Below are positions 34,249 to 39,990 of a stretch of DNA of 39,990 bases, piece by piece. Position 1 is the stretch's first letter, and each line of letters opens with the position of its first letter. The stretch is taken from NCBI GenBank assembly GCA_903899885.1, contig CAIULK010000064.1, positions 1 to 39,990 of the forward strand. The letters run 5' to 3'. Made by a program: the position numbers and the translations under genes. The DNA comes from an uncultured Rhodospirillaceae bacterium. Its GTDB lineage: Bacteria; Pseudomonadota; Alphaproteobacteria; Rhodospirillales; Magnetospirillaceae. The notes under the pieces are model-generated. The model was not told where the DNA came from and made no database searches. It saw only the letters and a program-made list of their open reading frames with translations.

Positions 34249-36699
34249 ATGCGCGAGACCCAAGTGCCGACGCTATCCGCGGAGGAATTCCGCGACCGTA
34301 TCCTCGATCACGTCTGCAAAACGATCGGCAAGAACCAGCAGACCATGACGGCCGACGATTGGCAGCAGGCGACCGCTTACGCCTGCCGCGATCTGATGGC
34401 CCCGGCATGGCTGGCCAGCCACGAGGCCAATTACCGCACCAACCCCAAGGTGGTCTGCTATTTGTCGATGGAGTTTTTGATCGGCCGGTCGCTGTCGGGC
34501 AACTTGGTCAAGCTGGGCCTCTATGAAACCTGCCGCAAGGCCTATGAACTGCTGGGGCTCGACTGGAAGAATATCGCCTTCTCGGAACCCGAGGCGGGAT
34601 TGGGCAACGGCGGCCTCGGCCGTTTGGCGGCCTGCCTGATGGACTCGTTGGCCACCATCGGCGTGCCGGGCTGGGGCTATGGCATCCGCTATGACTACGG
34701 CATGTTCCGCCAGCGCCTGGTGGGCGGCGAGCAGATCGAGGAGCCCGACGATTGGGCCCGCAACGGCAGCCCGTGGGAATTCAAGCGCGAGAAAAGCGTG
34801 TTCGAGGTGCAGTTCGGCGGCCGGGTGATTCATTTCACCGACGCGCAAGGGCGGCTGCGCCACGAATGGGTCGATGGCGAGCGGGTGGTGGCGGTCGGCC
34901 GCGATCAGGCGATCACCGGATTCCTGTCGCAGACGGTCAACACCTTGCGTCTTTGGCGGGCCGACGCGCTCAACACCTTCGATCTCAGCCGTTTCAATAC
35001 CGGCGATTATGTCGATGCCGTGCGTGGTGGCATCGAATCGCAGAATCTGTCGCGTATCCTCTATCCCGACGATTCCACCCATTCGGGCAAGGAATTGCGC
35101 TTCAAACAGGAATATTTCTTCGTCGCCGCCTCGTTGCAGGACATCCTGCGCCGCTTTTCCAAGCTCAATCCCGACCTCAAGGCGCTGCCCGACAAGATCG
35201 CCATCCAGCTTAACGACACCCACCCGGCGATCGCCATCCCCGAATTGATGCGCCTGCTGCTGGATCTCCACGGCATGGGCTGGGAGGAGGCGTGGGACAT
35301 CTGCGTGCGCACCTTCGCCTACACCAATCACACGGTGATGCCCGAGGCGCTGGAAACTTGGCCGGTCGATATGTTCAGCCGCCTTTTGCCGCGCCACTAT
35401 CAGATTGTTTGCGAAATCAACCACCGCTTCCTCGAGCATGTTCAGCACATTCGCCCGGGCGATTTCGATCTGTATCGCCGCATCTCGATCATCGACGAGG
35501 AAGGCGGACGCCGCGTGCGCATGGCCCATCTGGCCTTCGTCGGGTCGCACAAGGTCAACGGGGTGGCGGCGGTTCACACCGATTTGATTCGCCGTGGTTT
35601 GTTTCACGACCTCGACGTCGTGCTGCCGGGGCGTATCGTCAACGTCACCAACGGGGTGACGCCGCGCCGCTGGCTGATGCTGTCGAACCGCCAATTGAGC
35701 GAGCTGATTTCATCGCATATCGGCGGCACGTGGCCGCGCCACCTCGACCAGCTCAAGACTCTGGAACCCTTCGCCGAGGATGCCGACTTCCTGGGGAAAC
35801 TGGACGCGGTCAAGGCCCACAACAAGCGCCGCTTGGCGGCGCTGATCGCCGAAACCACCGGCGTTCATGTCAACCCGGCCTCGTTGTTCGACATTCAGGT
35901 CAAGCGCATCCACGAATACAAGCGTCAGCTTCTCAACCTTCTGCACGTGGTCACCTTGTACAACCGCATCCGCGCCGGGGCGACCCAGGGAATGGTGCCG
36001 CGCACGGTAATCCTGGGGGGCAAGGCCGCCCCCGCCTATCACATGGCCAAGCGGATCATCCGGCTGGCCAGCGACATCGCGCAGCTCGTCAACCACGACC
36101 CGGCGATCAACGGCTGGCTGCGGCTGGTGTTCATCCCCAACTACAACGTCTCGCAGGCGCAGATCATCATTCCCGGCGCCGATCTGTCCGAGCAGATCTC
36201 GACCGCCGGCACCGAGGCCTCGGGCACCGGCAACATGAAGTTCGCGCTGAACGGCGCGCTTACCATCGGCACGCTGGACGGCGCCAATATCGAGATCAAG
36301 GACGAGGTCGGCGAGGACAACATCTTCATCTTCGGCCTCGACGCCGATCAGGCCAACGATCTGCGAAGCACCCGCCGACAGGCCACCTGGGACCTGTACC
36401 ACGCCGATCCGGAATTGCGCCAAGCCCTGGATGTGATCGCGAACGGCTGGTTCTCGCCCGAGGACTGCAATCGCCACCGCCCGATCGTCGATGCCCTGAT
36501 GACCCACGACGAGTTCCTGGTGCTGACCGACTACCGCGCCTATATCGACTGTCAAGCCCGGGTGGCGGCGCTGTTCGGCGACCATCGGCAGTGGAACCAA
36601 AGGGCCTTGCTCAACATCGCCCGCATGGGCCGGTTCTCGATCGACCGCACCGCCCACGATTACGCGCGTCAGATTTGGAACGTCGAACCGGCCGGGTGA
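34249..36699 (+). CDS. glgP: Glycogen/starch alpha-glucan phosphorylase
   Basis: GlgP releases glucose 1-phosphate from glycogen or maltodextrin using pyridoxal phosphate. The 816 residues match the roughly 815 of E. coli GlgP. PLP is bound by K664 in TEASGTGNMKFALNGALTIG; GNGGLGRLAACLMDS and LNDTHPAIAIPELMRLL flank the active site, and VKRIHEYKRQLLNLLHVV is a second landmark. The start is MRETQVP, preceded by a GGGGGACGGG site. No other glg genes are present in the window; the response regulator lies just upstream. Together with pfp at the left end it supports a fermentable-carbon store. Confidence 0.97.
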   Translation: MRETQVPTLSAEEFRDRILDHVCKTIGKNQQTMTADDWQQATAYACRDLMAPAWLASHEANYRTNPKVVCYLSMEFLIGRSLSGNLVKLGLYETCRKAYELLGLDWKNIAFSEPEAGLGNGGLGRLAACLMDSLATIGVPGWGYGIRYDYGMFRQRLVGGEQIEEPDDWARNGSPWEFKREKSVFEVQFGGRVIHFTDAQGRLRHEWVDGERVVAVGRDQAITGFLSQTVNTLRLWRADALNTFDLSRFNTGDYVDAVRGGIESQNLSRILYPDDSTHSGKELRFKQEYFFVAASLQDILRRFSKLNPDLKALPDKIAIQLNDTHPAIAIPELMRLLLDLHGMGWEEAWDICVRTFAYTNHTVMPEALETWPVDMFSRLLPRHYQIVCEINHRFLEHVQHIRPGDFDLYRRISIIDEEGGRRVRMAHLAFVGSHKVNGVAAVHTDLIRRGLFHDLDVVLPGRIVNVTNGVTPRRWLMLSNRQLSELISSHIGGTWPRHLDQLKTLEPFAEDADFLGKLDAVKAHNKRRLAALIAETTGVHVNPASLFDIQVKRIHEYKRQLLNLLHVVTLYNRIRAGATQGMVPRTVILGGKAAPAYHMAKRIIRLASDIAQLVNHDPAINGWLRLVFIPNYNVSQAQIIIPGADLSEQISTAGTEASGTGNMKFALNGALTIGTLDGANIEIKDEVGEDNIFIFGLDADQANDLRSTRRQATWDLYHADPELRQALDVIANGWFSPEDCNRHRPIVDALMTHDEFLVLTDYRAYIDCQARVAALFGDHRQWNQRALLNIARMGRFSIDRTAHDYARQIWNVEPAG

Positions 36700-36849
36700 G
36701 CCAGCCTATGCCTTAAGTGTGCGGTCGGGGTTGGAATGCCCCCACCCATAAGAGTTTCACCCTACCTCCAAGCGGGTGTTTCAAATTCATCCGGTAAATC
36801 TCATCTTGCGGGCTCCGACGACAAGGCCCACGAAGACGGAGAGACGTGG

Positions 36850-37578
36850 ATGAAAAGTGCTAAGGCCGAAGCCCATGGACAGACGCCGGCCGGACACGAG
36901 CCTCAGCCGCGCATGGTGACCGTCCTCATCATGGGCAAGCGTCACACGGTGCCCGAGCATGCGACGATCATGCGGGCCATCGAATATGCCGGTCATCAGA
37001 TCATTCGCGGCGCCGGTTGCCGCGAAGGTTTCTGCGGCGCCTGCGGGACCATCTACCGCTTGCCCGGCGATTATAAGATTCATACCGGTCTGGCCTGCAC
37101 GACGCTGGTCAAGGAAGGCATGTCGCTGACCCAGGTTCCCGCCGTTCCGATGGAAAAGGCGATCTACGATCTGGAAAAGCTGACGCCCGACGTCACCACC
37201 ATTCAGCAGCTTTACCCGGTGGTCTTCCGCTGCGTGGCCTGCAACACCTGCTCGAAGGCGTGCCCGCAGGGTCTGAAGACCATGGATTATATCCAAGCGG
37301 CGATGCGTGGCGATATCGCCATGATCATGGACCTGTCCTTCGACTGTGTCGCTTGTGGCCTGTGCGCGCTGCGCTGCCCGGCCGAAATCGTCCAGCACAA
37401 GGTGGGCATTCTGGGCCGCCGCTTGTATGGCCGTTACCTCAGCAAGCACAGCCAGCATCTCGACGATCGCATCGACGAAATGCACGCCGGCAAGTTCGAT
37501 GCCGAATACGCGACCCTGATGTCGATGGCCAAGGACGAGCTGAGCAAGCTCTACTACGCTCGCGATATCGAGGCGTGA
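36850..37578 (+). CDS. Iron-sulfur subunit of fumarate reductase-like complex
   Basis: This 242-residue ferredoxin-like protein carries three iron-sulfur clusters. A [2Fe-2S] site uses C57, C62, C65 and C83 (GCREGFCGACG, LACTTL). Two [4Fe-4S] sites follow: C128/C131/C134/C138 (CVACNTCSKACP) and C166/C169/C172/C176 (CVACGLCALRCP). Classical SdhB/FrdB ends with a [3Fe-4S] site, but here the last cluster has the full four-cysteine pattern, as in TfrB-like or HdrC-linked proteins. It probably passes electrons between the flavoprotein and the Hdr subunits. GGAGAG six bases before ATG 36850 sets the start; the frame extends further upstream without homology. Confidence 0.85.
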   Translation: MKSAKAEAHGQTPAGHEPQPRMVTVLIMGKRHTVPEHATIMRAIEYAGHQIIRGAGCREGFCGACGTIYRLPGDYKIHTGLACTTLVKEGMSLTQVPAVPMEKAIYDLEKLTPDVTTIQQLYPVVFRCVACNTCSKACPQGLKTMDYIQAAMRGDIAMIMDLSFDCVACGLCALRCPAEIVQHKVGILGRRLYGRYLSKHSQHLDDRIDEMHAGKFDAEYATLMSMAKDELSKLYYARDIEA

Positions 37579-37639
37579 CCCGCCGCCGCCCTTTCGCGCG
37601 GCACCTTAAAGCAACGAACGGATTTCCGGGGGTATAGAG

Positions 37640-39355
37640 ATGTATCCAGAGTATATGGCGGGTTCACTGAAGGCGGTTGAGGCGACCCGGGCGAAGCGCC
37701 TGGAATTGGCCAAGTCGGGCCAGCCCGTCTTCACGCCGATGACGGCCGAGGAACGCCAAGACGTCCTGAACAAGTTCCACCCCGACTACGCCCCGGGCGC
37801 CTTGCGCACCGTGCGGATCGGTCCGAACAAGGGCGAGGAACTGACCACCGAGGTCACCGAGATCCTCGAAGCCCATTCGATGGTCGAGCCCAAGCTGATG
37901 GACATCCATCTGACCAAGCCCGACTACGAAACCGATCTGCTGATCATCGGCGGCGGCGGTGCCGGGTGCTGGGCGGCGATCGAGGCGGCGCGCAACGGCG
38001 TCAAGTCGATGATCGCCACCAAGCTGCGCATGGGCGACGCCAACACGATGATGTCGGAAGGCGGCATGCAGGCCGCGGTGGCCCCGGCCGACTCGCCGAC
38101 CCGGCATTACCTGGACGCCATCGGCGGCGGCCACTTCGAGAACAAGCCCGAACTGGTCAAGATTCTGACCGAGGACGGCCCGGAAGTGGTGCGCGAGCTG
38201 GAAAAGCTGGGCGTCATCTGGGACAAGATGGACGACGGCTCGATGCAGGTGCTGCACGGCGGCGGGACCTCGCGCAAGCGGATGGTGTCGTGCCGCGACT
38301 ATATCGGCGCCATCATCATGCGCACCCTGATGGACGAGGTGAAGAACCACCCCGACATGATCACGGTCCGCGAGTTCGAGCCGGCCGTCGAATTGCTGCT
38401 CGACGAGAAGGGCCATTGCTGCGGCGCCGTGCTGTACAGCCTGGACACCGAGCAGTTCCTGACCGTGCGCGCCAAGTCGACGATCATCACCTCGGGCGGC
38501 TTCGGGCGTCTGCACATCCGCGGCTTTGCGACCACCAACCACTATGGTGCGACCGGCGACGGTCTGGTGATGGCTTACCGTGCCGGTGCCAAGCTGAAGT
38601 TCATGGACTCGGTGCAATACCACCCGACCGGTGCGGTGTTCCCCGAGCAGATCGCGGGCTTCCTGATCACGGAAAAGATCCGTGGCGCGGGCGGTCAGCC
38701 GGTCAACAAGAACGGCGAGCTGTTCGTCTTCCCGCGTGAACCGCGCGACGTTTCCAGCGCCGCGATCATCCGCGAATGCACCGAACGGGGCATGGGCATC
38801 GACACCGGGGCGTCCCGCACCGGCATCTGGCTGGACAGCCCGATCATCGACATGCTGCATGGCGAGGGCTACACCCGTCATCACTTCCCGGCGATGGTGC
38901 GCCAGTTCGGCCAGTTCGGCATCGATATCGTCAAGGATCCGATGTTGATCTTCCCGTCGCTGCACTATCAGAACGGCGGCGTCGAGATCGACGGCCAGTG
39001 CCAGACCAACATCCCCGGCCTGTTCGTGGCGGGCGAGGCGTCGGGCGGCGTGCATGGCCGCAACCGCCTGATGGGCAACTCGGTTCTCGATTACAACGTC
39101 TTCGGCCGCCGCGCGGGCAAGATCGCGTCGGAATTTTCGAAGACCTCGAAGATCGGCAAGCCGAACCTGGATCACGTGGTGCGCTATGCCAAGGAAATGT
39201 CCGACGCGGGCGTCGAAAGCGATCTGGTCGCTCCGGTGATCCTGCCGTCCTACACGCCCGAGGACGTCAAGCTGCAACAGCTGGCGCGTCTGGGCAACAC
39301 CCCGGCCCGCCACTCGATGCTGCGCAGCCGCATCAGCCGCGGCGACCACAAGTGA
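37640..39355 (+). CDS. Fumarate reductase/succinate dehydrogenase-type flavoprotein
   Basis: This 571-residue flavoprotein resembles FrdA/SdhA. The FAD-binding strand is LLIIGGGGAGCWAAIEAARNG (100-120). Active-site residues appear kept: H328 (QYHPTGAVF), R369 (EPRDVSSAAI), H442 (LHYQNGG) and R476 (HGRNRLMGNSVLD). The histidine that normally links FAD covalently (SHTVAAQGG in SdhA) is replaced: the matching segment reads DANTMMSEGG, with N135. So FAD is probably noncovalent, as in TfrA-type enzymes. An N-terminal extension of about 95 residues precedes the Rossmann fold, much longer than in SdhA. The neighbours suggest fumarate reduction linked to Hdr subunits rather than an SdhCD anchor. Confidence 0.88.
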   Translation: MYPEYMAGSLKAVEATRAKRLELAKSGQPVFTPMTAEERQDVLNKFHPDYAPGALRTVRIGPNKGEELTTEVTEILEAHSMVEPKLMDIHLTKPDYETDLLIIGGGGAGCWAAIEAARNGVKSMIATKLRMGDANTMMSEGGMQAAVAPADSPTRHYLDAIGGGHFENKPELVKILTEDGPEVVRELEKLGVIWDKMDDGSMQVLHGGGTSRKRMVSCRDYIGAIIMRTLMDEVKNHPDMITVREFEPAVELLLDEKGHCCGAVLYSLDTEQFLTVRAKSTIITSGGFGRLHIRGFATTNHYGATGDGLVMAYRAGAKLKFMDSVQYHPTGAVFPEQIAGFLITEKIRGAGGQPVNKNGELFVFPREPRDVSSAAIIRECTERGMGIDTGASRTGIWLDSPIIDMLHGEGYTRHHFPAMVRQFGQFGIDIVKDPMLIFPSLHYQNGGVEIDGQCQTNIPGLFVAGEASGGVHGRNRLMGNSVLDYNVFGRRAGKIASEFSKTSKIGKPNLDHVVRYAKEMSDAGVESDLVAPVILPSYTPEDVKLQQLARLGNTPARHSMLRSRISRGDHK

Positions 39356-39368
39356 TAGGCGGAGCGCC

Positions 39369-39776
39369 ATGACGGTACGCATCACGCGCCAAAGCGTCGC
39401 CAACGCCTTCGTCACCAAGGTCGAGCGGCTGGCGGACCAGGATCTGCTGAAGTGTTATCAGTGCGGCAAATGTTCGGCCGGCTGCCCGATGGCGGCCTAT
39501 ATGGACATCCTGCCCAACCAGATCATCCGCTTCGCCCAGTTGGGGATGGAAGAGGAGTTGCTGAAAAGCGGCGCGATCTGGATGTGCGTGTCGTGCCTGA
39601 CCTGCAATTCGCGCTGCCCCAAGGGTGTGCGGATCGCCGAAACCATCGAGTCGCTGCGCCAGTTCCACCTGCGCGAACGCAACGACTATCTGGTGCTCGA
39701 GAAGATCCCCAACGAGGTTCGCACCTCGGTGCCGCCGATCGCTCTGATCGGCGCCATGCGCAAGTTCACCAGTTGA
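39369..39776 (+). CDS. HdrC-like iron-sulfur protein
   Basis: This 135-residue protein has two [4Fe-4S] cysteine sets: C29/C32/C35/C39 (CYQCGKCSAGCPM) and C73/C76/C79/C83 (CVSCLTCNSRCPKG). The intervening helix and short ends match heterodisulfide reductase subunit C, the electron wire to an HdrB-type subunit. No membrane helices are visible. It lies 13 bases after the flavoprotein gene and 10 bases before the HdrB-like gene, so all four form one operon. In this context it would link fumarate/succinate chemistry to thiol or quinone redox. Confidence 0.9.
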   Translation: MTVRITRQSVANAFVTKVERLADQDLLKCYQCGKCSAGCPMAAYMDILPNQIIRFAQLGMEEELLKSGAIWMCVSCLTCNSRCPKGVRIAETIESLRQFHLRERNDYLVLEKIPNEVRTSVPPIALIGAMRKFTS

Positions 39777-39786
39777 GGGACGTCCG

Positions 39787-39990
39787 ATGAAGCTCAGCTA
39801 TTACCCCGGGTGCACCCTCAAGAACCAAGCGCTGAATTTCGATGATTCGACGCTGTTCGCCCTGAAGCACCTGAATGTCGAGTTCGAGGAGTTGCAGCGC
39901 TGGAATTGCTGCGGCACCGTCTATTCGCTGACCTCGGACGACATGATGCGTCAGCTGGCCCCGGTGCGGAACTTGATCCGCACCAAGGAA
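39787..39990 (+). CDS. HdrB-like protein, N-terminal part
   Basis: The window ends inside this gene; 68 residues are visible. They begin MKLSYYPGCTLKNQA, with C9, and reach the first CCG-type motif at C41-C42 (RWNCCGTVYSLT). These are the first two landmarks of HdrB-type CCG domains, which hold a noncubane [4Fe-4S] pair in heterodisulfide reductases and a related unit in SdhE/MfrE-type quinone reductases. The second CCG repeat lies beyond the edge. It completes a flavoprotein-FeS-HdrC-HdrB module. Whether it acts on thiols, quinones or another carrier cannot be decided. Confidence 0.88.
   Translation, partial: MKLSYYPGCTLKNQALNFDDSTLFALKHLNVEFEELQRWNCCGTVYSLTSDDMMRQLAPVRNLIRTKE

Follow-up and report, generated by a model that had tools for sequence, protein, structure and literature searches.

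The contig CAIULK010000064.1 of an uncultured Rhodospirillaceae bacterium (assembly GCA_903899885.1; contig C64 below) was analysed over its entire length of exactly 39990 bases, which we refer to as the window, and it closes with four closely spaced open reading frames (ORFs) on the + strand that encode an iron-sulfur protein, a fumarate reductase-like flavoprotein, an HdrC-like protein and an HdrB-like protein. Judged from their sequences and from those of the genes that follow, these four genes open an operon for the reductive tricarboxylic acid (rTCA) cycle, in which a fumarate reductase is encoded together with an NADH-linked Hdr-Flx complex of the bifurcating type. We contend, with a probability of roughly 0.62, that the TfrA-like flavoprotein and its TfrB-like iron-sulfur partner (TfrAB) would be the high-potential arm of a flavin-based bifurcating Hdr-Flx complex serving CO2 fixation by the rTCA cycle.

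Organization of the operon

The iron-sulfur protein (36850..37578, + strand; 242 aa from the ATG at 36850) contains one [2Fe-2S]-type motif and two [4Fe-4S] motifs of the form CxxCxxCxxxC and has no HdrB domain. Its longest ORF extends over 36736-37578 (280 aa), and the ATG at 36850 is the likely start. The flavoprotein (37640..39355, +; 571 aa) is followed by the HdrC-like protein (39369..39776, +; 135 aa, two [4Fe-4S]-type motifs) and by the first 68 residues of the HdrB-like protein (39787..39990, +), which is cut off at 39990 because the contig stops there, at an assembly end. The remaining 223 residues of HdrB are found at the start of contig C245 (locus L042:3-674; 10588 bases), where they can be aligned with a relative's HdrB (its residues 71-292); the first CCG motif, as seen in the translations, starts in the window and is completed on C245. 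No shared end sequence was found between the two contigs, and synteny suggests that they abut within hdrB. After HdrB, the gene order on C245 is KorD, KorA, KorB, KorC, HdrA, FlxD/MvhD, FlxC, FlxB, FlxA, AclB and the start of AclA; the remainder of AclA is located on contig C170, and the operon of the source genome is thus spread over C64, C245 and C170. Most of these labels are backed by family searches (POR_N, TPP_enzyme_C and POR for Kor; HdrA2; FlpD; Fer4_22; NAD_binding_1; the citrate-binding domain of ATP-citrate lyase), while FlxC, which matches no NCBIfam family at 1e-20, is labelled by position and similarity. The hdrBC genes of the window most likely belong to a full HdrABC-FlxABCD set encoded further along the operon.

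A sequence-only reading of the window had described a fumarate reductase-like enzyme in an Hdr-type module, with a three-cluster ferredoxin whose last cluster is of the four-cysteine type, HdrC and HdrB as separate subunits and no membrane anchor, and had pointed beyond position 39990 for the rest of HdrB. The motifs, the separate ORFs and the continuation of hdrBC into kor, hdrA, flx and acl genes on C245 bear this description out; likewise, no membrane anchor gene is visible in the window, and the ordinary sdhCDAB of the same genome lies on another contig (C244). TfrA and TfrB would probably form a soluble enzyme that reduces fumarate.

Distribution within the order and co-occurrence with HdrA

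Among 199 genomes of its alphaproteobacterial order, with a flavoprotein match threshold of 1e-60, nine match the flavoprotein, of which two fall in a paralog group at 44% and seven are carriers, namely the source genome and six others at 70-81%. The genes tfrB-tfrA-hdrC-hdrB-korDABC-hdrA-flxDCBA-aclBA are contiguous in five of the six other carriers (L029-L033), and in the sixth (G008) tfrBA-hdrC is located about 44 kb away from the remaining operon on the same contig. The kor genes sit between hdrA and hdrBC in the source genome and its relatives, and a single hdrBC set, common to tfr and hdrA, was detected per cluster. The same genes are also present in a betaproteobacterial metagenome-assembled genome (MAG; L044, L141), with tfrBA-hdrC downstream of aclBA. 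The carriers G003 and G075 are matched to Rhodospirillaceae bacterium LM-1 and to bin WMHbin7, the latter of which was placed in Rhodospirillales as sister to Magnetospirillum in a study of magnetotactic bacteria (PMC5955933). The rTCA cycle in magnetotactic Azospirillaceae has already been published (PMC11773610), and no description of this cluster in Alphaproteobacteria was found among the matches listed in the literature searched.

AclB was found in 15 of the 199 genomes, including all seven carriers. A search for HdrA at 1e-100 in 18 genomes was positive in nine, comprising the seven carriers, one of eight AclB-positive non-carriers (G122) and the betaproteobacterial MAG, with neither of the two paralog-only genomes matching (one-sided Fisher test for 7/7 vs 1/8, 0.0012). 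In this sample, the flavoprotein follows the Hdr-Flx-type HdrA more closely than it follows ATP-citrate lyase. The eight genomes of the order with AclB and without a match to this fumarate reductase are G010, G045, G053, G059, G062, G122, G143 and G155, and seven of them are also without an Hdr-Flx-type HdrA.

The ribulose-bisphosphate carboxylase (RuBisCO) large-subunit domain gave a strong full-length match in all seven carriers, and the protein of the source genome, the only one covered by the NCBIfam check, passes the ribulose-bisphosphate carboxylase cut-off (813.4 of 489 bits). The genes dsrA, dsrB and dsrC lie close together on contig C102 of the source genome, which, with RuBisCO on contig C143 (the contigs C143 and C102 bear loci L142 and L143), places genes of the Calvin-Benson-Bassham (CBB) and rTCA cycles in a possible sulfur oxidiser. 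CBB and rTCA genes are rarely paired, as discussed previously (PMC6315080), and the source genome probably adds a further case.

A glycogen phosphorylase-like gene, named from sequence reading, lies just upstream of the cluster (window 34249-36699), and its product is 83% identical to that of one same-family genome and about 55% identical to those of 15 other matching genomes. The flavoprotein has no match at 1e-60 in any of the 22 further genomes listed for the family, and the G+C content of the cluster is 0.62-0.63 vs 0.65 for window positions 1-33000. Horizontal transfer of the cluster is possible; bin contamination was weakly tested, by the glycogen phosphorylase identities, the same-family flavoprotein matches and the G+C content.

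The flavoprotein and its clade

In the alignment, His328, Arg348, His442 and Arg476 of the flavoprotein match up with the residues of Escherichia coli FrdA that form the fumarate site. Asn135, confirmed in the translation, stands opposite the His of FrdA that links the flavin adenine dinucleotide (FAD) and opposite a His of Mycobacterium Sdh1; the genome's own SdhA and E. coli FrdA both carry the FAD-linking His at this position, and the FAD of the flavoprotein is probably bound non-covalently. Matches to the FAD domain (FAD_binding_2, 99-482) start at residues 96-99, and there are therefore about 95 extra residues at the N-terminus (1-95). The predicted structure (39 sequences; mean predicted local distance difference test score 85.8) matches, over about residues 75-534, the fumarate reductase flavocytochrome c3 (with Z of about 40), FrdA (with Z of 38) and SdhA in VIA-align and Foldseek; the N-terminal extension is well predicted and mainly helical, and is barely covered by these matches.

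A tree of 44 proteins places the family and its paralogs in a group of 37 with 100/100 support, separate from the genome's own SdhA and NadB, E. coli FrdA, a haloarchaeal protein and three archaeal TfrA-like proteins. The tree left out MfrA and true TfrA, and some of its outgroup branches are long; when true TfrA was sought for it, none of seven genomes exceeded the TfrA cut-off and one of 14 control genomes did. The best NCBIfam match of the flavoprotein is TfrA, at 345.9 bits under a cut-off of 718, and it reaches 197.2 of 1100 bits on the flavoprotein model of methylmenaquinol:fumarate reductase (MFR); the iron-sulfur protein scores 24.7 of 385 bits on the TfrB model, with no CCG match in the 280-aa ORF. 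Methanogen TfrAB is soluble, and methanogen TfrB has a fused HdrB-like CCG half. The enzyme shares with it the best family match, but differs in its sub-threshold scores, in the N-terminal extension of the flavoprotein and in the missing HdrB half of TfrB, and is not taken as a member; nor, given the MFR score, does it belong to MfrABE or SdhABE. Membership among the ordinary succinate:quinone and quinol:fumarate reductases is likewise rejected, as the FAD-linking His is missing, no anchor adjoins the flavoprotein in the 31 loci described below and the protein does not group with SdhA or FrdA.

The retained active-site residues, the Asn at the FAD-linking position and the N-terminal extension had thus all been correctly recognized beforehand, and placement in an ordinary SdhA clade beside SdhCD, which had been named as the contrary outcome, is seen neither in the tree nor in the neighborhoods, with sdhCDAB on C244. 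The likeness then drawn to TfrAB or MfrABE survives in part: TfrA is the best family match, but the TfrA, TfrB and MFR cut-offs are missed, and the real relatives are the tfr-hdr-flx-kor-acl rTCA cluster and an operon of Pseudoclostridium.

A paralog that is 45% identical to the flavoprotein is encoded outside the window on contig C240 (L012:685-4146), with the same Asn and N-terminal extension, alongside a TfrB-like iron-sulfur protein and a NuoF-like protein. Its relatives are found in Paraburkholderia and on a Pseudoroseomonas plasmid, there with a NuoF-like gene, and the paralog resembles a soluble, NADH-linked enzyme of the fumarate reductase type.

Conservation and varying input genes among the relatives

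Scanning of named genomes yielded at least 583 confirmed relatives, a family therefore far beyond chance, and the best 80 of these at least 583 loci were used; among their titles are Aminicenantes, Gallionellales, Cloacimonadota, Chloroflexi, Deltaproteobacteria, Clostridia and Bathyarchaeota. In an alignment of 88 sequences (the 80 loci, six relatives from the order, Ilyobacter and the window), Asn135, His328, Glu345 and His442 are found in 87/87 covering sequences, Arg348 and Arg476 in 86/86, and the N-terminal extension in 87 of the 88 flavoproteins. Part of the conservation of Asn135 stems from the scan itself, in which this Asn belonged to one of two patterns; as an independent check, all seven paralog rows from a protein search carry it. 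Both [4Fe-4S] CxxCxxCxxxC motifs occur in 83 of 84 TfrB-like neighbors, the exception being an 81-residue fragment.

Gene neighborhoods were assessed in the 31 loci whose flanks reach 5 kb or more on either side of the flavoprotein. TfrB is directly upstream in 29 of these, and HdrA, HdrB or HdrC lies within about 10 kb in 24 (HdrA in 20), with FlxA in 11 and KorA in 11. No SdhC/D-like anchor gene adjoins the flavoprotein in any of the 31, in a scan that included small ORFs. The candidates considered were a long ORF at L044, read as antisense; upstream ORFs of 183 and 510 aa at L060 and L080, with two hydrophobic stretches; and, at L084, a 1489-aa HdrA-type ORF and, about 2 kb downstream beyond two intervening genes, a four-helix protein of 325 aa. 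All were rejected, as none resembles an adjacent SdhC/D anchor. Also, matches to AclA at 28-30% (L104, L108) and to AclB at 23-26% (L084, L100, L113) were not taken as ATP-citrate lyase. These neighborhoods bear on whether the fumarate reductase could be quinone-linked, in the manner of MfrABE or SdhABE, and bind the membrane through HdrB. The HdrB fragment does match the MFR anchor model (138.8 bits vs 151.3 bits on the HdrB model), but the low MFR score of the flavoprotein, the lack of an adjoining anchor-like gene in the 31 loci and the hdrA-flx set downstream leave us giving this explanation almost no credence.

HdrA, HdrB and FlxA are all encoded near the flavoprotein in 12 of the 80 loci, 10 of which also contain Kor-like genes. 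In the remaining two, from a Clostridium MAG and an Acidaminococcaceae MAG, and in Ilyobacter polytropus, the order is hdrB-hdrC-hdrA-flxDCBA-tfrBA, with no kor or acl in the sequence stretch covered. The Ilyobacter module comes after an aspartase gene, and since aspartase could supply fumarate, this context fits fumarate as the substrate. At one locus each of Cloacimonadota (L077) and Fermentibacteraceae (L098), hydrogenase genes of the MvhG and MvhA types come after hdrC-hdrB-hdrA-mvhD-tfrB-tfrA. The constant part in these Flx- and Mvh-bearing loci is HdrABC with TfrAB, and the input module, either Flx or Mvh hydrogenase, changes.

Proposed mechanism and alternatives

In the proposed mechanism, FlxA would accept electrons from NADH and FlxBCD would hand them on to HdrA, whose flavin would split the electron pair. 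One branch would run through HdrC-HdrB to TfrB and TfrA, where fumarate would be reduced to succinate, and the other would reduce ferredoxin. KorDABC, a 2-oxoacid:ferredoxin oxidoreductase encoded within the operon and most likely acting on 2-oxoglutarate, would then fix CO2 with the reduced ferredoxin, and AclBA would complete the cycle. The analysis shows which genes are present, how they are ordered and co-occur in relatives, their motifs, and the clade and predicted fold of the flavoprotein; from these we infer the direct transfer from HdrBC to TfrB, the flavin bifurcation, the direction and the substrates. With assumed potentials, the reaction of 2 NADH with fumarate and ferredoxin (-500 mV) is estimated at about -33 kJ/mol.

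Several observations weigh against this mechanism. Seven of the 31 well-flanked loci (L053, L060, L064, L099, L104, L108, L113) are without detected HdrA, HdrB or HdrC within about 10 kb, and part of the family may therefore work otherwise; among them, Flx matches occur at L053 and L099 and an MvhD match at L064. L113 adjoins a gene for a lyase whose C-terminal domain is of the argininosuccinate-lyase type, possibly another fumarate-producing enzyme. Within the order, G122 (83% complete) has hdrB-kor-hdrA without a flavoprotein match at 1e-60, and the co-occurrence counts are not independent, because four of the seven carriers represent one genus. HdrA scores 787.4 bits on the HdrA2 model, under its cut-off of 1100, and KorA misses the 2-oxoglutarate-specific model (393.6 of 579 bits) while passing the general 2-oxoacid:acceptor model (553.5 of 411), so that the substrate assignment of Kor rests on the published cluster. 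Both CCG motifs are kept, as in a disulfide reductase, in 58 of 63 HdrB neighbors (58 of the 60 that have at least 255 aa). The expression of tfrAB in Endoriftia did not follow the remainder of the cluster (PMC11636981), and the portions of the literature covered hold no biochemical evidence.

The intact CCG motifs would suit a thiol-linked scheme. Here a disulfide carrier, either DsrC or a small thiol, would be reduced by Hdr-Flx at HdrB and then re-oxidised with fumarate by TfrAB, with or without HdrBC, as methanogen Tfr does with thiols, and there would be no direct electron path. DsrC is present in six of the seven carriers, with dsrAB beside it in the source genome; an interaction of DsrC with FlxABCD-HdrABC in Desulfovibrio is cited in PMC10504309, and a DsrC-like route is among the options named in PMC11636981. 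However, no DsrC match was found in the carrier G008 (completeness estimate 100%), though the other component genes tested are present, which argues against an obligate role of DsrC in linking HdrB to TfrAB and does not speak against a small-molecule disulfide. As TfrB here is without the HdrB half of methanogen TfrB and a single HdrBC set was detected per cluster, we regard the thiol-linked scheme as unlikely.

Hydrogenobacter has a soluble NADH-dependent fumarate reductase, and the C240 paralog, which pairs TfrBA-like proteins with a NuoF-like protein, offers a simpler NADH-linked design. By analogy, the operon could encode a non-bifurcating fumarate reductase dependent on NADH (or ferredoxin), with Hdr-Flx as a mere wire, or two independent co-expressed enzymes. 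The presence of an HdrA of the HdrA2 kind (albeit below the cut-off) and of an FlpD/MvhD protein, and the position of the ferredoxin oxidoreductase within the operon, make this rather improbable in our judgment. Relatives of SdhA and FrdA are able to run both ways, and the complex might then confurcate the electrons of succinate and reduced ferredoxin to NAD+. Under standard conditions, this reverse running would cost about 33 kJ/mol (with the same assumed potentials), ATP-citrate lyase is encoded in the same operon and the genome has an ordinary succinate dehydrogenase for succinate oxidation, and we consider it highly improbable.

The bifurcating mechanism could be taken further. It can be speculated, tentatively and with clearly less confidence, that HdrABC-TfrAB is a portable fumarate-driven bifurcating core across several phyla, with interchangeable inputs (NADH via Flx, H2 via MvhAG), and that in rTCA autotrophs it forms one particle with 2-oxoglutarate synthase, such that fumarate reduction would directly pay for the CO2-fixing step without DsrC or a thiol carrier.

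Relation to known systems

Rubin-Blum (2019) reported aclAB, korABCD and tfrAB with flxABCD-hdrABC in Thioflavicoccus mobilis and in symbionts of tubeworms, and raised the possibility of a complex between the Kor, Tfr and Flx-Hdr proteins, whose genes are interspersed (PMC6315080). Mitchell (2024) found the genes of the cluster, except for tfrAB, to be co-expressed (PMC11636981). The operon described here agrees with that cluster in its gene set, in the position of korABCD between hdrA and hdrBC, in the RuBisCO genes of the genome and in the published proposal that Hdr-Flx feeds the 2-oxoglutarate:ferredoxin oxidoreductase (OGOR) and the fumarate reductase, whereas the carriers here are alphaproteobacterial and the likeness is one of gene content, not of compared sequences. 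The 'succinate operon' of Pseudoclostridium thermosuccinogenes combines fumarase, Flx-Hdr and fumarate reductase, and for the potential involvement of a fumarate reductase in bifurcation the same paper refers to a preprint of 2019 (PMC7282089). By its locus tags it holds seven Flx-Hdr and two fumarate reductase genes, the same count as at L026, L116 and L122; it differs in serving fermentation, in including a fumarase gene and in having no kor or acl named for it, and is likened by gene content only. Similarly, Celaenobacter (Cloacimonadota) has thiol:fumarate reductase, OGOR, Mvh and Hdr genes in one cluster (PMC8542988), which brings Tfr, Hdr and OGOR together and resembles the Cloacimonadota locus L077, with H2 rather than NADH as the input.

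Since the gene set and the idea of Hdr-Flx feeding Tfr and the 2-oxoglutarate synthase have been published, this kind of cluster is already known. For a bifurcating fumarate reductase as such, a phrase search of the literature gave no paper. What appears to be new here are the alphaproteobacterial carriers, the swap of inputs within one family, a carrier without DsrC, the RuBisCO large-subunit match in all seven carriers and the closure of the open hdrB end on C245.

Implications

A relative of magnetic bacteria is now seen to have a cluster that was proposed in tubeworm symbionts. New test subjects are thereby at hand that are not animal symbionts, each of the seven having a RuBisCO large-subunit match beside rTCA genes, and the carrier without DsrC narrows the choice of electron carrier. 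If an Hdr bifurcating complex can use fumarate as its high-potential acceptor, carbon fixation through the rTCA cycle would be cheaper, and the yield estimates for succinate fermentation would also change.

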